Part shown: positions 5,054 through 19,516 of the stretch, piece by piece
Layout: every line of letters starts with the position of its first letter
Position numbering within the stretch: the stretch's first letter is position 1
NCBI GenBank assembly: GCA_032164295.1
Contig: JAJHTX010000001.1
Coordinates: 62,001 to 126,000, forward strand
Reading direction: 5' to 3'
DNA: 64,000 bases
DNA from: Inonotus obliquus
Lineage: Eukaryota > Basidiomycota > Agaricomycetes > Hymenochaetales > Hymenochaetaceae
The notes under the pieces: generated by a model
What the model was told of the DNA's origin: nothing
Databases searched by the model: none
What the model saw: only the letters and a program-made list of their open reading frames with translations
Position numbers and translations under genes: made by a program

Positions 5054-6222
5054 AGGGCAAATACAGCATCAAGGTCCTATACCAAGTCGTAACTCAGTCC
5101 CGTCAAAGAGTCTGTCAATAATGGACCACTAGTACATGTATAAATGGCAATTGAGATTTCAAAGGGCGATGGCAGGGCGATGAGTGGGTGTGTAGATAGA
5201 GTGTAGGGAGTTGTCCAACATCTTCGATTCCATTCCATCATTACACACCTACATTAATACCATACCACATAATGTACCCGATAGACTTTGAGAAACATAG
5301 AACACTCGCCTTTCTCTACCTTGCAAAGCTAAGCAAACAGGATGCAATTCTCCTGTCCACCATCACGAGCGCAAGGCATTCAGGGCATTTGGGCAGACTT
5401 GACTCGCAATGTGAATGTAAGTGTTCTATTTGAAGAACCTATTCGCAACAATGGTACTCACCAGGGTCGTGCAGAAAATGGCAAGCAACCTTACTGACCA
5501 AGTGTGTTCGATTTTGAATGTCACGAAGGCTGTCATGCACGGAAACTTGTCCAAGGTTGTCGACGTAGATGTGCAGGGTGAATTGTTAGGAAACCGTGAA
5601 CAGCATGGTTGCCCAAGTTTCGCCACTTGCAAACGAAGTTGTTTGCGTGTCAATCGAAGTCATTACTGAAGGTAGACTCGGTGGACAAGCTGTTGTCCCT
5701 GACATGAAATGGGTGTGAAGGTTGGTTGTAGGTCCGACTGTAAGGTAGGGAAAGTATAAACTCGACTAGGTGTGACGCGCGGCATGCGACCCTGACTTGG
5801 CCTGACTTGCCTCATCCGGTGACTCTGGACCCTTTCTAAACTGCAACTTCCACACAACACAAACTCGAATTTGGTTCCCATAGATCTCTTCTAATAATAA
5901 TTACAATCATATGTATGTTTTTAAAATTAAAAAATATGGACCCCTGACCTTTCAATAATAGAATAAACCTTTTTTGTGCCAAATGGCTCAGAATTCATTT
6001 TCCAGCATTCTGGTAAGGTTTTCAGAAATTTTGAAAATTTTGACCTCAGAATTTTTGCCACTCTTGGCAGACACAGCATGACAAATGCAGTCCAGATATA
6101 GTAATTTACTTATGACTAACACTTATTACTAATACATGACTAATATGCATTTATAATCTATCTTCCTACTACCAAGAGAGAGCCAGGGGAGCTAATTCAT
6201 GGTAGGATAAGCCTTACTTTGG
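5054..6222. other. Interior of the outer element, no supported gene
   Basis: One open frame of 82 codons (5421-5669, plus) shows no known motif. From 5900 to 6200 the sequence is strongly AT-rich. I see no transposase remnant here. Confidence 0.4.
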
Positions 6223-6319
6223 TGTTCTGTCAAGGTTTAAATGAGATTCTGCGAGCCTAACTGAAAGGATTGTGCTGAAATTTTGATTCGATTAGGAACG
6301 CCGATCGAAACTACCCCGG

Positions 6320-7096
6320 ATGGGACCGGTTAATTTCACTGGCCGGAGACGATCAGGATCGACAGCGAGAAGCGAAGAACACGCACGGCTAATACAATCC
6401 GAAGCCGACGATCAAGAAGCATCGGCTAGCAACGCTAATCCCGACGATCACACTAAACCTTCGCAAACGATGCAGCAAGTACAGCAACCTCCAACGGCTT
6501 GCTATAAATGCAGAAGAGTGCGACAGATCATCGAAGACCTACACAAGATAATACTACGGGAGGCAACGGGCATGTCGACATATCATGTGTCCAGCGAACG
6601 AGGAACAGCTTATCGAGAATACCACAATCCCCCGGAGGTCGTTCGAAATCGCACGAGGTCAACAATAGCAATGGATACGGCAATAGGCATGCAACCAAAG
6701 ACGCACTGGACAATAGTAGGAATCCACGACATATTAGCACTCGAGTGCCCAAGCACATTCGTGGAGATCAGTGCAGACTATGTTACGAACCGCCGCTCAC
6801 CGATAACAGCGGCATGGGTTGCAAACACACTCAGGGAACTATGGGCATACTGCAAAGCTATTCGACTACAAGGAGACCTATACCTAGGCTGGAGAATACC
6901 TTCAAACGATACTCGACGAAGTGTACGGCTACTCATCGCCATAGGCACCTACGTTAAACCACCTTGGTTTCCCCACGATGATATCCGATGTCGAATCACA
7001 CTTGACGGCCCCGAACAAGAGTCCCGAGGCGACAAGCAAATCACAGCCTTCATAGCCCCAGATGCTATACAATGGAACCCCGACGGAATTCCTTAA
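6320..7096 (+). CDS. LTR-encoded CxxCR protein of the second element
   Basis: A 258-residue frame starting at ATG 6320. Around residues 61-83 it has C-x2-C-R-x8-L-x5-R-E-x-T. The same spacing occurs in the 253-residue protein encoded in both LTRs of the adjacent complete element. Further weak similarity follows in order: an H-x-x-IVGI strand, an ISADYV / VDVDIAY patch and a C-terminal basic stretch ending in a Pro-rich turn. No cellular protein family is recognised. Two cysteines alone do not make a complete zinc site, so metal binding is only a guess. Position upstream of a TATA box places it in a U3-like region. Whether it is expressed cannot be seen. Confidence 0.55.
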   Translation: MGPVNFTGRRRSGSTARSEEHARLIQSEADDQEASASNANPDDHTKPSQTMQQVQQPPTACYKCRRVRQIIEDLHKIILREATGMSTYHVSSERGTAYREYHNPPEVVRNRTRSTIAMDTAIGMQPKTHWTIVGIHDILALECPSTFVEISADYVTNRRSPITAAWVANTLRELWAYCKAIRLQGDLYLGWRIPSNDTRRSVRLLIAIGTYVKPPWFPHDDIRCRITLDGPEQESRGDKQITAFIAPDAIQWNPDGIP

Positions 7097-7426
7097 ATGC
7101 ACAAGCAACTGCGGACGAGCGAACTTTAACTACGGCGCAGCTATGCAAAACCAATGGCATACGAACACGCATTCAATGACTCACTCACTGACTCACTCTA
7201 TGCACAGGGCGCAGCACAAGACCGACCCCGAGCATAGGTTTCAATTCAGTTCAAGTCAAGATGAGTCAACGCCGAGTCATCGCCTTGCACAGGGCGCAGT
7301 CGATGAGTCAATCCGCAGCAGAACAATGGGAATACCAGACGAGTTTGGAAGCTAGAATAACGAATCAGATCGAGAGTAGGAACTATGGAGCGTAGGAAGT
7401 GGTCCGTCCACAACATGAGGAAAAGG

Positions 7427-7435
7427 TATAAATAG
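7427..7435 (+). promoter_or_regulatory. TATA box of the LTR-like remnant
   Basis: TATAAATAG lies 330 bases after the end of the LTR-encoded frame. The following 450 bases contain no ATG on this strand, as expected if transcription starts just downstream. Confidence 0.5.
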
Positions 7436-7977
7436 TTGTAGACTTAGACCGTAGCTCCCTATCTTTCTTTCGATTGTCTTGTACATCGAGTCCTCTTAGG
7501 CATCTAGCTTCTAATCTGAAGACCACCTAATCTGCTTAACCTCTCTTACTCTACGGCGTGGAACGATTGATCAGTCGTCCACCGACTAGAGAAGCTTGCG
7601 AACGGCAACCTACCTGAGTTTAGCTGGGTACTTGTCCTACTAGCCTGTCAACGAGGTTGAGGCCCGACTTGATCAGTTAAACGAGAGCGTCTGAGGCAAC
7701 GCCTAGTATACTTGGGAATCTGCCCTGCTTGTGAAAACCGAGTAGGCTCCGGAAACTCTTAGAAAAGCATCGCCGAACCCGTAACACTGCGGACCGTCCT
7801 ACTGTGGTTACTGTATAGTCCCTTTAGGGCGAGCGTTTTCTAACACATCCCTCCGGTGCTCTCTTTGGATCGGCAAAGTACAGACACATGGATACAGAAT
7901 CGTTCGGTGGCATGTTTGAGTTACCGAAGAGATATAAAAGTATTTGCCTAGTAAGATGTTCAGGTACCGGTGAAAGG

Positions 7978-9431
7978 TGTTTATCTCCGTGGAGGGTTCG
8001 TTGATTCTTGATCGACGGACCAATCTGGCTAATTCCTCGGTTTGAGGGGTTAATCCAAATTCTACAATACTGGTTATGGAATTGCTAATCACCTTAGTGG
8101 ACTGTGTAGCTGATCCGATCTGAAACAACTAGCAACTAACTAATATTGCAGTTGAACCTGATACTATAATCGTACAGTATTAAGTTGGCGGGAATACGCG
8201 ATTGTTATACTGATTGTTATTCACGATAAGGGAATATCGGGAATCGCACTACGTTGTGAGTAGCTCGTACCGTGCAGACAATAGGGAGAACAATCTAGTT
8301 GCAATCCGTATTTTAGCTTTACTTCGATTTCACACAATCGGTTCAGTTCAGCCGTGTCGCTACTGGTAATTTACTGGCTCGCAAGTAATTGATGTTACGA
8401 TTTAACTTAGGGACTTATGGTAGGGTCCCTTGACTTGGATTAAACTGCTAGGTCGGCTCTACGATGGCCTCCTGATATACTAATTTACATGTGTGACGTT
8501 ACTACCTTGTTACTTACTGTTTATGGTATTTATCTGTTTCTTCCTCCATGATACCTGGTCCGTGCTTTCTCTTTACTTCCTTCCTTATTTCACTACCTCT
8601 GTATTACTAGCCTCTCTTTGATTAGTTTAGTGCAGTGGGCGGTACCATCTCGCAGATAGGTTTGATTCTTGTATAGGTAACGGCACTTGATCTAATTCAG
8701 CTATTCTAGGTAATTGCTGAGTCATCTGTCCTTGTATTTCGGGTCTCGTTGGTATCGGTCGTGGTACAGTCAGCCAGTTTCGAATAGTTTGCACTCGTGT
8801 ATATCCTAGCGTTGTCCTGGCACGTTGTAGGTTTACCCCTTGTACTCCTTGTAGGTGTATTACTCCGCCGTACTGTTCTACCTTTATTTCCATTATGGTA
8901 TATCCATAAGGTAATCCTCGACTTATGTAATTCATTATCCAATGCCCCCAAGCATATGCAGTTCTCTCATTCGTTCCGGCTTGGTCTCGCTTGTAGGCAA
9001 TGTCGACATCTACTATAGCTGCGTCGCATTGTTCGTGTCTTCCTTCCTGTGCTACGTTTCGTATTCCGATCATCATTACAAAGTGTCTGGCGTCGTAGGA
9101 TAATACTCGTATCTCCCTTTCATAAGCTTTTTGTATTTGTTGGTTAGGGTCGTAGGTTAGTTCTACAAATCGACGTCGTATCATTATATCGGCTTGTCCG
9201 TTCATTATGTCCCCGTACGTGATCTCTCTGATTAATTCTCGCATTAGCCCTCCAGCTAGTTCTTTAGCTGGGCGGCACGTGTTGCAACATCGTAGTATAT
9301 TGCTTCGCGGTGTCGGTGGAACGATAGGCTGTTCTAGTACTTGTATTACTGCCGCTAACCGCTCTTGTATCCAACGTAGGACGCTCATAGTTATTGGCTT
9401 ATTAATGATGGATAATACTACCTTTTTAACA
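7978..9431 (-). repeat. 3' LTR
   Basis: Same length and, by eye, same sequence as the 5' LTR. It is preceded on the minus strand by the polypurine tract at 9432-9445. The terminal CA end borders AAAGG at 7973-7977. Confidence 0.95.
8627..9388 (-). CDS. LTR-encoded CxxCR protein (3' LTR copy)
   Basis: Identical in translation to the 5' LTR copy, with ATG at 9388. This copy is downstream of all internal genes and could be read from a full-length or spliced element transcript up to the poly(A) site only if that site lies beyond 8627. An upstream in-frame ATG at 9511, outside the LTR, would extend it by 41 residues. The LTR-internal start is preferred because it is the only one shared by both copies. 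Confidence 0.7.
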   Translation of the reverse strand: MSVLRWIQERLAAVIQVLEQPIVPPTPRSNILRCCNTCRPAKELAGGLMRELIREITYGDIMNGQADIMIRRRFVELTYDPNQQIQKAYEREIRVLSYDARHFVMMIGIRNVAQEGRHEQCDAAIVDVDIAYKRDQAGTNERTAYAWGHWIMNYISRGLPYGYTIMEIKVEQYGGVIHLQGVQGVNLQRARTTLGYTRVQTIRNWLTVPRPIPTRPEIQGQMTQQLPRIAELDQVPLPIQESNLSARWYRPLH

Positions 9432-9445
9432 CTCCCCCTTCTAGG
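9432..9445 (-). other. Polypurine tract
   Basis: On the minus strand TAGAAGGGGGAGTG sits immediately before the 3' LTR start. This is the expected place and composition for plus-strand DNA priming during reverse transcription. Confidence 0.85.
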
Positions 9446-9517
9446 AATGCATCTGACATAATCATAAGGAATGCATGACACATATTCTTTATTCATAATT
9501 CTTAAGCCCATTTTGAG

Positions 9518-10233: not shown

Positions 10234-13200
10234 TTATATACCCTGTTCCTCGTGTGAACCCGTAGGTTTTCGCTTCGTTAACCGTCTACTTCTTTGCCGG
10301 ATGCGGCCTCCGTTCTCATCCCTTTTTATGGCATGATCAGGATTCCTCCTGATGTTGTCGTCGTCTTCCTCCCAATGTTGTTCCTTGGATAGTGGACTTT
10401 TGACTCTCTGGTATGTTTCTTCTAGATTATCCGTTCTCGATGAACCACTAGGATTGGTGTGTAATGGGTTATTTTCGTCATACGCGAAATCCTTTATTTT
10501 TATCGGGTTCCTGGTATTTATCATCCTTCTCTTGGCTGTTCGCTTTCCTTTCTCTTCGTTTTCGTTATTCCTTCTAATCCATCCGTCGATGTAATTTGGT
10601 TTCTCCGCTTGTGGGTGTTTCTGATAGTATTCCTCGATCTTTTCCGTGGCGTTTCCTAGGTTCCCTAATGGCTCCCATGAATCGTGTTCTGCCCCGTATC
10701 CCTTCCAATTTATTAAGAAGTAATATTTCCGTCCTGTTTTCCTTGAATTTAGTACCCTTTCTACTTCGTATTCGTCATCCTCTACAATGACTGGATTCGA
10801 AGGTACTTCTTGGTCTTCCGTGGTGTTATCTACTATTCTATCTTGGTATTTAATAAGATTACCTGCATATAATACTGGATGTATGCGCATCTTCTTTGGT
10901 AATTCTAGTTCGTAATTCAATGGCCCATGTTGTTTGATTATTCTATATGGTCCTAAATTCTTCGGCCCTATCTTTCGGCTGGGTACTACTATATTGTAGT
11001 TTCTAGCATCTATCATTACCTTATCTCCTACCTTGAATTCTAATTCTGCCCTCCTATGTTTATCGGTGTATCTCTTCATCTGTTCATTTGACGCCATCAG
11101 CGCTTGTTCTGCTTGTTTCTGTATCTCCCATACCTTTTTAATATATTCCTGTGCGTCTGGTGCGTTCGCTTGCCCCATGGGCAATATTTCCAATTTTCTT
11201 CCATAAAGGAGTTCAAATGGTGACTTCTTTATTGCTGCGTGTACTCTATTATTATAAGCAAACTCTGCCATGTGGATGTACTGCGCCCAGTTATCTTGCG
11301 CTGTGTTTACGTAATGCCTTAGGTATTGTTCTAGTTCCTGGTTTACTCTTTCGCTTTGCCCATCTGTTTGTGGGTGATGTGCCGTGCTAAGCGCATTGTC
11401 AATGTTCATGGCTTTATATACTTCTTGTGTAAAGTTGCTTGTAAACTGTGGGCCTCTGTCGCTAGTAATTCTTTCTGGTAGTCCGTGTTTCGTGAATACG
11501 TGGTCCAATAGCATCTTCGCTGTTTTCTTACTGTCTGTTTCTTTAGTACAGGGAATAAACGTTGCTATTTTTGAAAACCGGTCTACTACCACTAGTACCG
11601 CATCATAGCCCTCACTTTCTGGAAGTCCTGTGATGAAATCCATGGTGATATGTTTCCATGGTCCCGTTGGTATTTCCAATGGTTTCAGCGGTGGTTGTGT
11701 TCGTCCCCTCCTAGGTTTGTTCTTTTGACAAATGTGGCATGAGGCAACGTATTCCCTAATTTCTTCTTTCATATCCGGCCACCAATAGATTTCTTCTATT
11801 GCCGCTATCGTCTTGTCTGTTCCTGGATGTCCGCTCATTGGTGAGTCGTGGAAGGTATATAATACATCTCTTTTCCGGTCCTGTCCGGGTATTAATTTAT
11901 CGTTTGGTGGTACCATTCCTTCGCTTGCGCTGTTTCTAGCTTGTCGATCAAATATTTTTGGGTTGACGAATCTCTCGCTCGGTAATACGATCACGTCCTT
12001 GTTATCATTCTTTCCTTCGTCATATCCTGATCTCCTGGATAGCGCATCGGCCCTCGTGTTCTTGCTTCCTGGTCGATAATCGATTTTAAATTGATATCTA
12101 CTTAGTACGTCCGTGACCCATCGGGCCTGTTTTCGTCCGACTCGTTGCGCTTTCATGAAGGTCTTCAGGTTCAACGCGTCGCATAGTACTAAAATAGTAT
12201 GTTTCGCTCCTTCTAAATGGTGTCTCCAAGTAGTTAGGGCGATCACAATTGCGTACAGCTCCTTTTCGGATACTGGCCAGTTCCTTTCAGTTGTTGTAAA
12301 GGATCTCGTGAGATAGGCAATAGGATGTAGTTTTCCTTCGTGTTCTTGTGATAATACTGCTCCCATGCCATAGTCTGACGCATCTGTTTCTACTACGAAG
12401 GCTTTGTCATAGTCTGGTCTTCTTAATATTGGTCCTGTGATTACGGCCTTTTTCAGGGCTTCAAACGACCTTTGTTGCTCTTCTCCCCATACAAAGGCTT
12501 GTTTCTTGGATTCTAGTTTCTTCATCGGCCTTGCTATTGCTGCATAGTCCTTGACGAATTTCCTATAGAAATTACAAAATCCTGTAAATTTCTTTATATC
12601 CCGTTTGTTTTGCGGTACTGGCCATTCTTCTATTGCTTTGAGTTTGTACGGGTCCATTTTTAATCCGTCCTTGTTTACTATGAATCCCAGGTAGTCTAAT
12701 TCTTGCTTGTTAAAGAAGCATTTTTCCGGTTTCAGATAGAAGTCTGCTCTTCGTATCCGAGCTAGTACCTTCCTCGTTTTTTGTAACAGTTCTTCCTTTG
12801 TTTCGGCATAGATAATGATGTCATCTAGATAAATCATCACTCCATGGTTCAACATGTCTCCAAATAGTTCGTTCATAGCTCGTTGAAAGACTGCTGGCGA
12901 ATTCATCATTCCGAATTGCATTACCAATGGTTCAAATACTCCTTTATGTGTTCGGAATGCGGCTTTATGTTCGTCTCCTTCTTGGATTCGTATATTATTG
13001 TATCCTGACCGAAGGTCTAGCGTGGTGAACCATTTGGCCTTTCCCAAATTGTCGGGTAGCGTGTGCATAATGGGTATCGGGTATTGATCTACTTCACAAA
13101 CTGCATTTACTGGTCGGTAATCTATTACCATTCTTGCCCCTGCATCCTTCTTTCCGACGAAGAATACCGGCATTGCGTACTTTGAAGTGGATCTCCTGAT

Positions 13201-14799
13201 CCATCCTTTTGTCAAATTGTCTTCTATGAATTCTTCCACTGCTTTTTGTTCTAGTGGCGTTAGCGGATAAATGGTTCGTTTCGCTGTTGGTTCCTGTCCT
13301 TCTTTAAACACTATTTTCATATCCCATTGATTGTGCTTCGGTAGTCGTTTTGAATTGTTCTCGCTAAATATCTCCCCGAAACCCCATAGCTCCTTAGGCA
13401 CCAAGGATTTCCAATGCTTAGTCGTTCCTATTTGTGATCGTCCTTGTTCCCTTGCTTTTTCTTGGGAGTACTTTTGTGCCATACTGCTATACTTATTTAA
13501 TTTCTTAATTGCGGTTGTTTCCTGCTCGGTCCTTTCCTTTTTCATCCTGCTGTTTCGGCTATAATCTCGGTTTTGGGGTTTTTGATCGTTTACTTGTACA
13601 GTTATTCTCATGTTTCGGTCGTATACCACTTCTTCTGGTTTAGTTTTGTTTTCCCGGGCCTTTTGGTAACTCGTTTTCCTCTCTCTAGTTATTCTACTTC
13701 CGCCTTGCCCTACTTGGTGCATCTTTGGCGGTGGTTGCGGTGGTAATCTCTTACTCGGTGTTTCCCCGGATATTATTTGTTCTATGCTTGGGAGTGCTAT
13801 TTCCGTTCTTTCTGGTGATCTCGGCGGGTCTTCGAGATTTGTTTCCTCTAGTCTTTGCAGTTCTTCAGCTAATTTCCCAAAGTTTCTCAAGATTTGTTCT
13901 TGGAATTCGTCCCTTTCTTCCGTAGTTTCTTCTATTTCTTCGACTTCCTCTGGGTCGGATTCGATTCCTTCTTGCGACTCCCTATACTGCATTACTGGTG
14001 CTGGCAATACTGTGACGTCCTTAGGCGTTAGTGTGGTTGGCCGTATTCCTTCTGGAGGCACCACAATCACCGCGGTTTGTACGGACCTTGGTGGTGGTGT
14101 CGGTAGATTCCCTAAGCTTGCCTTTCCCATGGTATTCCACCTTATTGTTAATCCCGTGTCTCCTTCGGATTCGGACCCTTCTTCGGAGTCTCTTCGCCGT
14201 GGAGATCTAATTCTACGGGATTTTCTTCTTCTTTTCTGTTGATATCGAGCCATTCTCTCCATCGTTATCATATTCCGAGTTCCTAACAATTTGGCTTCCC
14301 CAAACCTAGTTGTTACCTTACCCGTTTCCCAGTTTATGACTGGCTTATAATTAGCTATCCAATCATTTCCTAATAAAAATTTGTCTCCTGTAGTTTCTAC
14401 TACTGCGAGTTCCATATTTCCTTTTGATGCTCCGGTATCCACCCATGCTCTAACGCTTTCCTTCCACCCGTTATTCGTTAGCGTTCCATCTGCATTTCTA
14501 ATTTGGGCAGGATTCTGTTTCTTTATTGTATCTAGTCCATATCGTTTGACGGTATTAGGACTAATCGTTGTTAATACTGATCCTGAGTCGATCATTGCTG
14601 TTATTGGCAGGTTTCTCTTTCCCCCCTGACTGAGGTATATCCTCAGTTTTGGATGATCGGTATTTGGTTTTACCGGGGTCGTCCATCGGCGTTTCCATTT
14701 CGCTTTTACCCGCGACCATCTTCCTTCTGGTTTCGTTATGGTCCCTTTCCTTGCGCGCTGATCAGCCGATTCGATCAGTCGCTTTCTTGAAAATCCTCT
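10234..14799 (-). CDS. pol: Pol: protease, reverse transcriptase, RNase H, integrase, chromodomain
   Basis: Numbering from an internal ATG at 14595 (1453 residues to the stop at 10234); the open frame starts about 68 codons earlier. Protease: IDSGS at the start of that numbering. Reverse transcriptase: YLDDIIIYA near residue 588 with the catalytic DD. RNase H: VETDASDYGMGAVLS near 737. Integrase: the zinc region around HICQKN near 957, then MDFITG, DRGPQF and QTDGQSERVNQ, which supply the D-D-E residues. Chromodomain near residues 1270-1325: YEVERVL, INWKGYG and SWEPLGNL. A chromodomain marks this as a chromovirus, a lineage whose integrase can be guided to particular chromatin. No stop or frameshift is seen, so the element looks able to move. 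A long basic tail follows the chromodomain. Confidence 0.95.
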   Translation of the reverse strand, partial: RGFSRKRLIESADQRARKGTITKPEGRWSRVKAKWKRRWTTPVKPNTDHPKLRIYLSQGGKRNLPITAMIDSGSVLTTISPNTVKRYGLDTIKKQNPAQIRNADGTLTNNGWKESVRAWVDTGASKGNMELAVVETTGDKFLLGNDWIANYKPVINWETGKVTTRFGEAKLLGTRNMITMERMARYQQKRRRKSRRIRSPRRRDSEEGSESEGDTGLTIRWNTMGKASLGNLPTPPPRSVQTAVIVVPPEGIRPTTLTPKDVTVLPAPVMQYRESQEGIESDPEEVEEIEETTEERDEFQEQILRNFGKLAEELQRLEETNLEDPPRSPERTEIALPSIEQIISGETPSKRLPPQPPPKMHQVGQGGSRITRERKTSYQKARENKTKPEEVVYDRNMRITVQVNDQKPQNRDYSRNSRMKKERTEQETTAIKKLNKYSSMAQKYSQEKAREQGRSQIGTTKHWKSLVPKELWGFGEIFSENNSKRLPKHNQWDMKIVFKEGQEPTAKRTIYPLTPLEQKAVEEFIEDNLTKGWIRRSTSKYAMPVFFVGKKDAGARMVIDYRPVNAVCEVDQYPIPIMHTLPDNLGKAKWFTTLDLRSGYNNIRIQEGDEHKAAFRTHKGVFEPLVMQFGMMNSPAVFQRAMNELFGDMLNHGVMIYLDDIIIYAETKEELLQKTRKVLARIRRADFYLKPEKCFFNKQELDYLGFIVNKDGLKMDPYKLKAIEEWPVPQNKRDIKKFTGFCNFYRKFVKDYAAIARPMKKLESKKQAFVWGEEQQRSFEALKKAVITGPILRRPDYDKAFVVETDASDYGMGAVLSQEHEGKLHPIAYLTRSFTTTERNWPVSEKELYAIVIALTTWRHHLEGAKHTILVLCDALNLKTFMKAQRVGRKQARWVTDVLSRYQFKIDYRPGSKNTRADALSRRSGYDEGKNDNKDVIVLPSERFVNPKIFDRQARNSASEGMVPPNDKLIPGQDRKRDVLYTFHDSPMSGHPGTDKTIAAIEEIYWWPDMKEEIREYVASCHICQKNKPRRGRTQPPLKPLEIPTGPWKHITMDFITGLPESEGYDAVLVVVDRFSKIATFIPCTKETDSKKTAKMLLDHVFTKHGLPERITSDRGPQFTSNFTQEVYKAMNIDNALSTAHHPQTDGQSERVNQELEQYLRHYVNTAQDNWAQYIHMAEFAYNNRVHAAIKKSPFELLYGRKLEILPMGQANAPDAQEYIKKVWEIQKQAEQALMASNEQMKRYTDKHRRAELEFKVGDKVMIDARNYNIVVPSRKIGPKNLGPYRIIKQHGPLNYELELPKKMRIHPVLYAGNLIKYQDRIVDNTTEDQEVPSNPVIVEDDEYEVERVLNSRKTGRKYYFLINWKGYGAEHDSWEPLGNLGNATEKIEEYYQKHPQAEKPNYIDGWIRRNNENEEKGKRTAKRRMINTRNPIKIKDFAYDENNPLHTNPSGSSRTDNLEETYQRVKSPLSKEQHWEEDDDNIRRNPDHAIKRDENGGRIRQRSRRLTKRKPTGSHEEQGI

Positions 14800-15713
14800 T
14801 TAGGTTCTCTTTCTTTCTCATTATCGCTAGCCTCGTTGGAGCCTTCATATTCCGATTCTTCTCCTATCAATCTTCTCTTGAATTTTTGATAGCCCGGTCT
14901 ACTCGGAGGTTTTCCTTCTCGTGGTTTCACTCTGCATTCTCTGGCAATGTGACCTGGTTTACCACATCTGTAACAACCCGTCGTATTCTTCGGTTTTTGG
15001 TTACTCCGGTACCTGGGTTTTCCTTTATTAGTCCTCTTTCTGAATTTTCGTACGTCTACGTCCATTGGGACTACATCGTCTTTTCTCCTCTGGGGTTTTT
15101 CCCAGTTGCTCGTGAAGGTCTTAGTCCTTGCCTTGGCGCCATATCTTGCGCCTTCTAGTGCTACTGCTCGGCTCATCCAGTTTGCTAGTGTCCATTTCGC
15201 GCTTTCCGTTTGTCCTGCTAACTGCGCATAAATATAATCTTTCATCCCTCTTCTGTATAATACTGTAAGTGCCTTATCCGGCCATACTGCCTTATCTAAT
15301 TCTGATACTATCTTTCCGAAATCACTATTGTACTGCAATATGGAGCCTTCTTGTACAATATTTACTAATTTATTCGTTGCGTCTTCTACAGGGTCATAGT
15401 ATTGTTTGTGGTTGCTCCTTATGTAGGTTAAGAATTCTTCAAACGTTTCCCATACTTGCCCTTTTCCTATCATATCTAGCGGATTTGTTTTTAACGCTGT
15501 GCTTACCCACGTGGCAGCCTTCTCTTCCATGCATTGGCACATGATGTAGGCTTTGTTACTATCTGTTAGTGCCGCTTGTTTGTTGCTCTGATTTTGCGCA
15601 TCCATCCATGCAAAATTACTAATCATCTTATTTATAAATACATCCACGTTCTCCTTATCTCTTCCTCTAAACTTCGGTGGTTTCTGCGACATACTCATTT
15701 GTAGGCTCGTCAT
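14775..15713 (-). CDS. gag: Gag polyprotein with CCHC zinc knuckle
   Basis: 312 residues from ATG 15713, the first ATG after the long leader. The structural protein packages element RNA into particles. Residues 20-170 have the helical capsid-like pattern of Ty3/gypsy Gag (for example the WETFEEFL..IRSNH stretch). Residues about 246-259 give CYRCGKPGHIAREC, a C-x2-C-x4-H-x4-C nucleic-acid-binding knuckle, followed by a basic segment and an acidic end. Its end overlaps the pol frame by 25 bases, with pol in the -1 frame. Confidence 0.92.
   Translation of the reverse strand: MTSLQMSMSQKPPKFRGRDKENVDVFINKMISNFAWMDAQNQSNKQAALTDSNKAYIMCQCMEEKAATWVSTALKTNPLDMIGKGQVWETFEEFLTYIRSNHKQYYDPVEDATNKLVNIVQEGSILQYNSDFGKIVSELDKAVWPDKALTVLYRRGMKDYIYAQLAGQTESAKWTLANWMSRAVALEGARYGAKARTKTFTSNWEKPQRRKDDVVPMDVDVRKFRKRTNKGKPRYRSNQKPKNTTGCYRCGKPGHIARECRVKPREGKPPSRPGYQKFKRRLIGEESEYEGSNEASDNEKEREPKEDFQESD
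14778..14799 (-). promoter_or_regulatory. Probable -1 frameshift window between gag and pol
   Basis: The pol frame is open from 14799, just after a TAA at 14800-14802, and gag ends at 14775. A run of four T (GATTTTC) lies in the overlap and would let a TTT codon slip back by one base. It is not a classical X-XXY-YYZ heptamer. No ATG for pol is found before the protease motif. Confidence 0.5.
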
Positions 15714-17271
15714 CTTCGCTTGAATCCCAAGTCAATCGGTCTCTCAGTTCTTGTTCCGAGATTTCGAGTTCTGCCGGGTCGAATTCTAGTAACGCTAAAT
15801 GCCTTCGATAATTGTCTTCTAGGTATTCGTCTTCTGTGGTATTGCTACTGTGGGCTTGACTAACGTTGCTGAATGGGCTGGAGAATTCTTCTGAATTGCC
15901 ACTGGTCGTGGATCCTGGGGAATAATACAATACCAACCTTCCTCTCGTTTCTACCTCTTCAATGATCCCCTGTTCTCGTTCGGTTTGGACTTCTCTGGTT
16001 TCTTCTTTCCTATTGTTTGCTTCCCTTTGTTCTCGGATTCGACCTATGATTCCTTTAGCTATTCTGTCCTGATCTGCTTTTCGATGATATTTGCGACTAA
16101 TGGTTATTGTTGGGATTTGTTCGTTTGTCGGTTTTAGTTCTTCTTGTAGCTCTGTAATTACTTCCTCGACTATCTCGTTTATGTTTAACCTAGCCAATCC
16201 TCGCAGGTCTATGCGGACGTTCCCTGCCTGATCTCGAGTAACGTTAATGCCGCTTGGTAGTCTTCTCCCGTTATCAAATGTAATCCCGGAGGTACTACTT
16301 TCTTGGTTAATGCCTTCTTCTTCTTCCGTGATGGTAGTTAGGTTCTCACTTTCGTTCTGGGCCCTGAAGTCGACTACGTGTAATTGTATCTCTCCTTCTT
16401 CCGGTTCCTCGTCTGGAATAGTGGGAATTGGCGAGTCTGGGTGCCTGTAACTTTCGTCTCCGTTGAAGTCCCTAAACCCGTTTGGTTCTGAATTTGCCCA
16501 ACGGCTCCCTGTTCCCCACTCTCCTCCGTTCTGCTCCGATTCGTTCGGTGATTCCCAACTGGCTTCGGACTGAGTTAGTTCCGGCGTTGGTTGATCTTGA
16601 TCGTCTCCTAATAACGATCCGACGGTGTTCCAGTCTTGTTGGATTTCCGCTTCCTCTCGCTGTCTTTCTTCTCCTTCCCACGCGGCGAGTGCGACTCTGA
16701 TATCCGACACTTGATTCCTTAGGCGTAGGAAGTTTGTCTCGATGCGGCTTACTTTATCTAATAATTCGCGCTGAAATTCGGCGTCTCGGTGTTCTCGGGC
16801 AGTCCACCGCTCTATGTGCTCTTCTTGTCTTCGCTGTAGCGTCTCGAAGGTGTGTTGTACTTCTCTCGTTATAGTCCGGAGGATGCCTAGCTCTGTCTGG
16901 TTGTACCTTACTAACGTTCTGGTGATATGGTGTGCCTCGTCGTTACTCCTGTGCCAGCGGCTATGTTTCTCGATATGTTGATTGAACTGATGGTCTAGGT
17001 ACACTCCCAACGCTTGATCCTTTTCAGCCTGTGTGTTGAGGATTAGTTCGATCCTTCCGGCCAATCGGTCCACTTGCGTTCCAATGGCAGTTGAGTAGTG
17101 ATATATCCCCCACTGCGTTGCGTAGGGTTCGTAAATAGACAGGTATTGAAGTAGTCTTGTTCCTCGTCTGAGCGCACTTGCGATCGCTGTCCTATAGTAG
17201 ATCGTACCAAATATGAATACTGTAACCAGCCCCGCGTATATTCCTTCGTAAGCCACTATAGTTATATTTAA
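15667..17271 (-). CDS. Leader open frame 2, no ATG: membrane segment, coiled coil, acidic tail
   Basis: Open for about 530 codons from after a TAA at 17272-17274 to a stop at 15667, overlapping the gag start by 47 bases in another frame. It contains no methionine at all. Counting from a GTG at 17256, residues about 7-21 are hydrophobic (YAGLVTVFIFGTIYY). Residues about 60-215 are rich in heptad-like Leu/Glu/Arg/Gln. The rest is a Glu/Ser/Asn-rich acidic region. Such a long frame would not stay open without selection for coding. gag lies in the +1 frame relative to it. Start codon and expression are unknown: GTG or another non-AUG codon, or splicing from an upstream ATG. No homologous family is recognised. 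Confidence 0.55.
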   Translation of the reverse strand, partial: LNITIVAYEGIYAGLVTVFIFGTIYYRTAIASALRRGTRLLQYLSIYEPYATQWGIYHYSTAIGTQVDRLAGRIELILNTQAEKDQALGVYLDHQFNQHIEKHSRWHRSNDEAHHITRTLVRYNQTELGILRTITREVQHTFETLQRRQEEHIERWTAREHRDAEFQRELLDKVSRIETNFLRLRNQVSDIRVALAAWEGEERQREEAEIQQDWNTVGSLLGDDQDQPTPELTQSEASWESPNESEQNGGEWGTGSRWANSEPNGFRDFNGDESYRHPDSPIPTIPDEEPEEGEIQLHVVDFRAQNESENLTTITEEEEGINQESSTSGITFDNGRRLPSGINVTRDQAGNVRIDLRGLARLNINEIVEEVITELQEELKPTNEQIPTITISRKYHRKADQDRIAKGIIGRIREQREANNRKEETREVQTEREQGIIEEVETRGRLVLYYSPGSTTSGNSEEFSSPFSNVSQAHSSNTTEDEYLEDNYRRHLALLEFDPAELEISEQELRDRLTWDSSEDDEPTNEYVAETTEV

Positions 17272-17298
17272 TTATGTATTCGGTTTTTTTTTTTGCGC

Positions 17299-17688
17299 TT
17301 ATACTTTACTTGCTTTTGCTTTCTCTTTCTTTCCGTTGAGTAGGGCTAGTAGTATTCGGTGTAATAGGTTGGCGTGTGCTTGCGCGGAGTACAACGTTCC
17401 TCCTCCGTTTTCTAGTGCTTTCTTAAATACCCTCTCGTGCGGTGTAGGTGATACTTTGCCTATAACCCTTCCTGTCTTGAAATGATCCCAGTAGAGATCT
17501 TGCCAAATTGGTTGCCTCGCTATTAGCTTCCACGCGTCTATATCTTTCGGCGCTCCTTGTTCTCGTTCCTGCGTTTGTTTTACACGCTCCAATGTTAACC
17601 CGACCTGTGGTTCTAGGTTTCGGTGGTTGTTACTGATGTCTATTTGCCGTTCCAGGTGGCCTACTGATTGGATAAGGGAATTATTCAA
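17299..17688 (-). CDS. Leader open frame 1, no ATG (129 codons)
   Basis: This frame is open between a TGA just upstream of 17688 and a stop at 17299. It has no methionine codon, so an AUG start is impossible in it. The predicted chain is polar, with a Glu/Gln-rich N-terminal part and a basic end (LLNGKKEKAKASKV). No family is recognised. It could be a coding exon reached by splicing or non-AUG initiation, or a chance frame helped by ATG avoidance. Confidence 0.35.
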   Translation of the reverse strand: MNNSLIQSVGHLERQIDISNNHRNLEPQVGLTLERVKQTQEREQGAPKDIDAWKLIARQPIWQDLYWDHFKTGRVIGKVSPTPHERVFKKALENGGGTLYSAQAHANLLHRILLALLNGKKEKAKASKV

Positions 17689-17770
17689 TCAGTCTATTTG
17701 AATGACTAGTTCGTGCTATCACAATTACCTTTATTGGCAATAGTCTGCGCTTGTTCCTTTAAGCTTGCCA

Positions 17771-17788
17771 AGAAGGGAGTTTAATCCA
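17771..17788 (-). other. Primer-binding-site candidate
   Basis: Two bases after the 5' LTR end the minus strand reads TGGATTAAACTCCCTTCT. TGG is the complement of a tRNA CCA end. I cannot name the tRNA; matching against the host tRNA set would decide. Confidence 0.55.
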
Positions 17789-18339
17789 GATGTTTATCTC
17801 CGTGGAGGGTTCGTTGATTCTTGATCGACGGACCAATCTGGCTAATTCCTCGGTTTGAGGGGTTAATCCAAATTCTACAATACTGGTTATGGAATTGCTA
17901 ATCACCTTAGTGGACTGTGTAGCTGATCCGATCTGAAACAACTAGCAACTAACTAATATTGCAGTTGAACCTGATACTATAATCGTACAGTATTAAGTTG
18001 GCGGGAATACGCGATTGTTATACTGATTGTTATTCACGATAAGGGAATATCGGGAATCGCACTACGTTGTGAGTAGCTCGTACCGTGCAGACAATAGGGA
18101 GAACAATCTAGTTGCAATCCGTATTTTAGCTTTACTTCGATTTCACACAATCGGTTCAGTTCAGCCGTGTCGCTACTGGTAATTTACTGGCTCGCAAGTA
18201 ATTGATGTTACGATTTAACTTAGGGACTTATGGTAGGGTCCCTTGACTTGGATTAAACTGCTAGGTCGGCTCTACGATGGCCTCCTGATATACTAATTTA
18301 CATGTGTGACGTTACTACCTTGTTACTTACTGTTTATGG

Positions 18340-18346
18340 TATTTAT
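18340..18346 (-). promoter_or_regulatory. TATA-like box in the 5' LTR
   Basis: ATAAATA on the minus strand, about 40 bases before the start of the ATG-free tract at 18300. The same site in the 3' LTR is 8527-8533. A start of transcription near 18310 would make everything up to gag an ATG-free leader. This is inferred from position only. Confidence 0.35.
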
Positions 18347-18439
18347 CTGTTTCTTCCTCCATGATACCTGGTCCGTGCTTTCTCTTTACTTCCTTCCTTA
18401 TTTCACTACCTCTGTATTACTAGCCTCTCTTTGATTAGT

Positions 18440-19201
18440 TTAGTGCAGTGGGCGGTACCATCTCGCAGATAGGTTTGATTCTTGTATAGGTAACGGCACT
18501 TGATCTAATTCAGCTATTCTAGGTAATTGCTGAGTCATCTGTCCTTGTATTTCGGGTCTCGTTGGTATCGGTCGTGGTACAGTCAGCCAGTTTCGAATAG
18601 TTTGCACTCGTGTATATCCTAGCGTTGTCCTGGCACGTTGTAGGTTTACCCCTTGTACTCCTTGTAGGTGTATTACTCCGCCGTACTGTTCTACCTTTAT
18701 TTCCATTATGGTATATCCATAAGGTAATCCTCGACTTATGTAATTCATTATCCAATGCCCCCAAGCATATGCAGTTCTCTCATTCGTTCCGGCTTGGTCT
18801 CGCTTGTAGGCAATGTCGACATCTACTATAGCTGCGTCGCATTGTTCGTGTCTTCCTTCCTGTGCTACGTTTCGTATTCCGATCATCATTACAAAGTGTC
18901 TGGCGTCGTAGGATAATACTCGTATCTCCCTTTCATAAGCTTTTTGTATTTGTTGGTTAGGGTCGTAGGTTAGTTCTACAAATCGACGTCGTATCATTAT
19001 ATCGGCTTGTCCGTTCATTATGTCCCCGTACGTGATCTCTCTGATTAATTCTCGCATTAGCCCTCCAGCTAGTTCTTTAGCTGGGCGGCACGTGTTGCAA
19101 CATCGTAGTATATTGCTTCGCGGTGTCGGTGGAACGATAGGCTGTTCTAGTACTTGTATTACTGCCGCTAACCGCTCTTGTATCCAACGTAGGACGCTCA
19201 T
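18440..19201 (-). CDS. LTR-encoded CxxCR protein (5' LTR copy)
   Basis: 253 residues from ATG at 19201, 43 bases inside the LTR. Residues about 33-55 give C-x2-C-R-x8-L-x5-R-E-I-T, followed by an RRRFVEL patch, an MMIGIRNV strand, IVDVDIAYKRD and a C-terminal region rich in Pro, Gln and Arg. No known family is recognised. A homologous frame sits in the older LTR-like remnant at 6320-7096, so this is a shared property of at least two related elements. Proteins encoded within an LTR are rare; mouse mammary tumour virus sag is the classic case. The frame lies upstream of the likely transcription start in this copy, so expression would more plausibly come from the 3' copy. Confidence 0.7.
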   Translation of the reverse strand: MSVLRWIQERLAAVIQVLEQPIVPPTPRSNILRCCNTCRPAKELAGGLMRELIREITYGDIMNGQADIMIRRRFVELTYDPNQQIQKAYEREIRVLSYDARHFVMMIGIRNVAQEGRHEQCDAAIVDVDIAYKRDQAGTNERTAYAWGHWIMNYISRGLPYGYTIMEIKVEQYGGVIHLQGVQGVNLQRARTTLGYTRVQTIRNWLTVPRPIPTRPEIQGQMTQQLPRIAELDQVPLPIQESNLSARWYRPLH

Positions 19202-19516
19202 AGTTATTGGCTTATTAATGATGGATAATACTACCTTTTTAACAAAAGGTAAGAACGTACCAACAATGTCCCCCACACTCAAGCTCCGGACTGCATCTTC
19301 TTCTTTATTTTCTTCAATTTGTCAGCCTCCAATGGTAAACAGCAAAATCTTTAACTTCATGCCCTAGATCTGGCATGTTCTTCGCTACAAACACCGTATC
19401 TATAATTCAGAATGAACGAAATTCAGAATGAACGAGTAAGTTTATCTGTGCATATAGGCTTGTCTCCATTGTAGCAACTAGAACAGCGGCTCAATATCTC
19501 TCATGGACACAGGTTC

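Follow-up and report, generated by a model that had tools for sequence, protein, structure and literature searches.

Long reading frames without internal AUG codons, placed upstream of a main polyprotein, have been described for rice tungro bacilliform virus (RTBV) and the badnaviruses. In RTBV, ORF I begins at AUU and both ORF I and ORF II are free of internal AUGs, so that ribosomes scan across some 900 nt; they avoid the structured leader by shunting, a process that depends on a uORF in these viruses (PMC5902531). As far as the consulted part of that source reaches, this AUG-free leaky scanning is the closest known parallel to the leader analysed here, which precedes gag in a retrotransposon. 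The two share long upstream ORFs without internal AUG before the main polyprotein and, as predicted for the element, non-AUG or weak AUG starts (PMC5902531). The upstream coding ORFs of the element are AUG-free in all frames, with one inherited exception in a diverged relative on contig 6 (hereafter C6). Unlike the RTBV leader as described there, that of the element measures about 2,546 nt instead of about 900 nt and carries no AUG-initiated uORF, there being no leader AUG in the copy under study; it also belongs to a Ty3/gypsy element with a probable intron-made AUG.

Other systems share single features with this locus. The self-primed Ty3/gypsy elements Tf1 and Tj1 of fission yeasts have a primer binding site (PBS) that matches, by complementarity, the 5' end of their RNA, and the same Gag, PR, RT, IN layout, and the part of the source consulted mentions no upstream ORFs for them (PMC4600332). 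Rice Retrosat2, RIRE3 and RIRE8 are LTR elements with an additional ORF, ORF0, ahead of gag-pol, with neither an AUG-free leader nor a splice-made start mentioned in the description consulted (PMC3485330). ORF3a of poleroviruses and luteoviruses is, according to the consulted part of its account, a conserved non-AUG leader ORF that was found by coding constraint, overlaps the start of the next ORF and is followed by ORFs translated by leaky scanning; it differs in spanning 45-48 codons, in belonging to an RNA virus and in lacking an intron (PMC4422679). In Cer1 of C. elegans, splicing separates Gag from the accessory export protein CERV, so that by this description the accessory protein comes from spliced and Gag from unspliced RNA, as would be the case here; CERV, however, shares exons with gag, whereas the ORF0 described below lies upstream of it (PMC10309623, part consulted). 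That ORF0 might act similarly to CERV is speculation by analogy. Among the matches listed in our literature search, which covered titles and abstract openings and left subscription papers mostly outside its coverage, no AUG-free leader with Met-free ORFs was described for an LTR retrotransposon.

The minus strand of the window, i.e. of the whole 64-kb stretch of DNA analysed, carries a Ty3/gypsy chromodomain element of 11.3 kb, recognised by Gag, the PR-RT-RH-IN order, a chromodomain, LTRs and a target duplication. All features of this element named below lie on the minus strand. The 5' LTR (TGTTAA..TAAACA, 1454 bp, 17791..19244) and the 3' LTR (7978..9431) do not differ over their 1454 bp, the 5-bp duplication CCTTT flanks the element, and the insertion is recent. 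The gag gene (14775..15713) has Ty3_capsid and zinc knuckle domain matches, and pol (10234..14595) encodes protease, RT, RNase H, integrase and the chromodomain in a frame open from 14799. The two frames differ and overlap by 25 nt (14775-14799), which suggests programmed frameshifting. A protein search with Gag, in which 421 candidates were scored, returned 2 matches, at 55% and 39% identity, and in a pol search of viral contigs 2 stretches fit the pattern, neither of them a relative.

The 5' end of the element RNA can be predicted from sequence. An 11-nt self-primer (18249..18259) is exactly complementary to the PBS (17778..17788) and, as in the self-primed fission yeast elements, this complementarity places the predicted RNA start at 18259. 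The self-primer of Tf1 is 11 nt long. The same 11 nt stand in the same place in C6, and 13 nt in a further diverged element on contig 13 (C13). The predicted start falls 33 nt downstream of a TATA box (TATATC, 18287..18292; TATAAATA in C6 and C13), which fits the TATA-like box seen in an earlier sequence-only reading of this DNA. If self-primer and TATA box mark the 5' end, the leader is in RNA. Two further observations were made around it. An ORF in U3 of the 5' LTR (18440..19201) evolves under purifying selection (13 N and 26 S shared variants in 14 copies, pN/pS 0.18) and has no Pfam match; its 3' copy (8627-9511) begins some 80 nt before the 3' LTR. Between PBS and the first leader ORF (17662-17730), motifs resembling a donor (AAGGTAAY), a branch site (CTGAY) and an acceptor (YAG|TAGGC) are conserved; noticed by eye in the alignment, they perhaps represent a second intron. 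An upstream intron ending near 17662 at YAG|TAGGC was considered, by eye, as a means of starting that ORF and set aside: splicing there would create no AUG, and the reading frames did not point clearly either way.

The sequence-only reading had reported that no sense-strand ATG occurs between 15714 and 18300, that ATG is frequent on the opposite strand and that the first ATG past the tract is that of gag. Our recount agrees on each point: from 18300 to 15714 there is none, the nearest minus-strand ATGs being at 18303 and at 15713 (the gag start), and 31 lie within the tract on the plus strand. Seen from the plus strand, CAT, the sole trinucleotide absent from the tract, does not occur between the gag ATG at 15711 and position 18301; elsewhere in the window, no minus-strand stretch without ATG exceeds 577 nt. 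The expectation of about 40 ATGs proved too high. The 2,545-nt leader has none, against a mean of 23.3 in 1000 dinucleotide shuffles (range 13-34), and this is far outside chance. Its first 598 nt, comprising U5 and the PBS, likewise hold none against 8.9 expected. U3 has 19 ATGs for 17.0 expected, the last upstream ATG preceding the TATA box; that U3 keeps its ATGs and the leader has none would follow from the self-primer setting the RNA 5' end at 18259. The absence spans coding and non-coding leader alike, from the predicted cap to gag.

The genome carries 14 or more complete copies of the tract, with that of the window included and partial ones left out of the count; the 14 are 97-99% identical. 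ATG is absent from the leader in nine of them, the window copy among these, the other five having one each, at five different places and each private to its copy. Variation within the family is a weak test for avoidance of new ATGs. Shared variants created none on the majority background (3.65 expected, P=0.02), with TAG (0 vs 4.9) and GAT (0 vs 3.7) equally depleted, and one on the window background (3.57 expected, P=0.11). Private changes create ATGs at close to the neutral rate (5 vs 7.2).

The pattern of sequence constraint strongly supports the presence of methionine-free genes in the leader. The longest, ORF0 (15667..17256), runs for 529 codons (17256 to 15670) without Met from a GTG, or from a junction AUG described below, to its stop. 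Shared variants among the 14 copies are 13 N and 38 S (pN/pS 0.13, P=3e-12), the other frames show the expected reversal of this pattern, and private variants number 26 N and 31 S; one 300-nt bin (16499-16200) shows no constraint (4 N, 3 S shared). ORF0 is free of stops in 15 of the 16 window-family genomic matches that cover all or nearly all of it, seven further rows of that search being one fragment and pieces of two diverged elements. Codon shuffles never gave as few ATGs as observed (0/2000, in the window element and in C6 each), and the 3 ATGs observed in the window ORF0 sit in the gag overlap. The C6 homologue has 514 codons, again without Met, is 29% (BLAST) or 34% (alignment) identical and keeps the hydrophobic N-terminus. 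No protein scored E<=0.01 among 7995 candidates searched with the window and C6 sequences, and ORF0 matches no Pfam family. A structure predicted from these 2 sequences consists largely of helix and disorder and, at a mean pLDDT of 43.7, is unreliable and too poor for a fold search.

A second Met-free frame, ORF-a (17302..17688, 129 codons), precedes ORF0. Its conserved part extends from about 17661 to 17305, about 120 codons, with 3 N and 8 S shared variants (P=0.003) and 7 N and 10 S private ones; its C6 counterpart has 140 codons and is Met-free as well. Between 17046 and 17255 the beginning of ORF0 overlaps a second open frame of 70 codons, and sequence comparison shows both frames to be conserved across these 210 nt. 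Identity to C6 is 38/70 residues in the second frame and 33/71 in ORF0 over the same stretch. When both ORF0 proteins were held fixed and synonymous codons randomised, the second frame was open in both elements in none of 5000 simulations, and its score (203) exceeds the simulated maximum of 97. The reverse simulation, with the second frame fixed, reached the score of ORF0 in 0/5000 cases. Variable sites are rare, 3 in 213 nt of the dual-coding stretch against 104 in 1332 nt of the remaining ORF0 (Fisher P=1e-4).

An in-frame TAG immediately precedes the second frame, which consequently needs joining to ORF-a. That TAG coincides with the acceptor of a proposed 49-nt intron (17256..17304, GTATAAG..CTATAG), which is well supported by comparison between copies and subfamilies. 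The candidate intron measures 42-49 nt in the 14 copies and 48 nt in both C6 and C13; its internal A-run varies in length, and GTATAAG and CTATAG are invariant in all 14 copies. In the window element and in C6, removal of this GT..AG segment would fuse ORF-a in frame to the second frame. It would also set A beside UGG (..A joined to TGGCTTAC), forming AUG GCU UAC, with which the conserved part of ORF0 begins. Initiation of ORF0 at the junction AUG appears likely. Random GTR..AG pairs of 40-60 nt create an AUG in 2-5% of cases. The C6 site has a good donor (GTAAGG) and a branch sequence (CTAAT), and the proposed intron ranks first among the 11 AUG-creating GT..AG pairs listed in a scan of the C6 leader. 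The window donor (GTATAA or GTAAAG, no G at +5) is weak and falls below the threshold of the scan, which listed seven other AUG-creating pairs instead, and no typical branch site was seen by eye in the window intron. Such a donor would fit inefficient splicing; it also counts against the proposed intron. With GTATAAG the junction AUG would carry U at -3. The window also offers another donor 5 nt further upstream (GTAAAG at 17309); its use would form the AUG as well, in a better context, and would lead ORF-a into ORF0 instead of the second frame.

We infer from these observations a mechanism that, taken whole, we regard as fairly probable. On full-length unspliced RNA, ribosomes starting at the cap would scan through some 2.5 kb of leader purged of AUG before meeting the start of gag; accessory proteins encoded there would have to do without AUG because the same stretch is purged for scanning. 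Inefficient removal of a small intron between ORF-a and ORF0 would join A to UG, and the resulting upstream AUG would fall exactly on the first conserved codon of ORF0. RNA that keeps the intron would then yield Gag, and spliced RNA ORF0. Splicing would also link ORF-a to the second frame overlapping ORF0, and ORF-a itself may start at a near-cognate codon. The AUG purge for scanning is well supported by sequence, less so by the within-family variant test. For the splicing switch itself we see slightly better than an even chance; here retention or removal of the intron would decide between Gag and the accessory protein, and a gene of 500 codons, otherwise Met-free, would possess its single start codon solely in spliced RNA, within a 2.5-kb AUG-free leader that codes in part in two frames. 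The sequence-only reading, which had AUGs removed so that scanning ribosomes reach gag, holds insofar as selection appears to keep AUG out of the whole stretch between the predicted start of transcription and gag. It overlooked the Met-free coding frames, the dual-coding stretch and the probable small intron creating an AUG, and the exclusion it described is not absolute: the diverged subfamily has one inherited leader AUG, and a second family in the genome has one weak AUG. If the mechanism is correct, about 2.5 kb of RNA under selection for no AUG forms an unusually long natural test of scanning, 500-codon genes can escape ATG-based gene finding and, should the splice-made AUG be real, one small intron separates genomic/Gag RNA from the mRNA of an accessory gene.

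ORF0 could instead start on unspliced RNA, at GUG 17256 or another non-AUG codon, with most ribosomes passing on to gag as in RTBV. This GUG is near-cognate with A at -3 and G at +4, ATAGTGGCTTAC is identical in the window element, C6 and C13, and the AUU start of RTBV ORF I, without internal AUGs, offers a precedent in the consulted part of the source (PMC5902531). We consider such leaky scanning a possible but distinctly tentative explanation, as it accounts neither for a conserved second frame that needs joining to ORF-a nor for the junction AUG at this very codon in both subfamilies. It is improbable, in our judgement, that the leader is never scanned and that the lack of ATG is a side effect of gag being reached by internal entry, by shunting or from a promoter or splice site just upstream. 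A distance of 2.5 kb is indeed very long for scanning and an internal entry site is compatible with the sequence, but the absence of ATG covers coding and non-coding parts, starts at the predicted cap and stops at gag. The AUG-initiated short ORF of shunting is absent from the leader in the window and 8 other full copies. The 186 nt directly preceding gag, moreover, belong to the parts in which the copies vary most (12.4 per 100 nt), unlike a conserved acceptor or promoter. That composition or mutation, with no selection on AUG, would account for the missing ATGs we find scarcely credible: taken by itself, the within-family variant test shows no depletion peculiar to ATG, yet the shuffles (0 vs 23.3), with 31 ATGs on the other strand, contradict it, as do the 8 leader ATGs (27 expected) of the C13 copy, which is decayed, broken in several frames and about 89% identical to C6.

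Returning to the proposed purge of AUG, the diverged subfamily shows where it is incomplete. The C6 leader has 2 ATGs for 24 expected. One is recent, since it is missing from the C6 3' LTR. The other (at 5562) is inherited, being common to C13, and makes the exclusion less than absolute; it results from a GAC to GAT change in a conserved ORF0 motif, opens a 30-codon uORF with G at -3 and occupies the site of the private ATG in one window-family copy.

A second, distant family in the same genome, whose gag is 24% identical to that of the window element, has the same plan, with a TATA box and a 16-nt self-primer. Four copies were compared, two of the four stretches being without the first part of the leader. 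They share only one leader ATG before gag (at 2853 of L058), which lies in a weak context and opens a 293-codon ORF under selection (6 N, 24 S); two more ATGs are each private to a single copy. The gag AUG stands in a strong context (A at -3, G at +4), and by sequence such an arrangement is typical of leaky scanning. No match to the upstream ORF was found at E<=0.001 among 1719 protein candidates. A further gag relative fetched for comparison (L059) has no long ATG-free leader. An LTR-like stretch of this second family lies in the window at 6262-7845 (plus strand), with a 97.9% match to a contig-13 stretch, and has its own ORF (6320-7096) with, by eye, the same start as the U3 ORF. The small-scale ATG gap that the sequence-only reading had noted in this remnant was recovered as the longest of the plus strand (7415-7888, 473 nt), most of it falling inside the LTR-like stretch.
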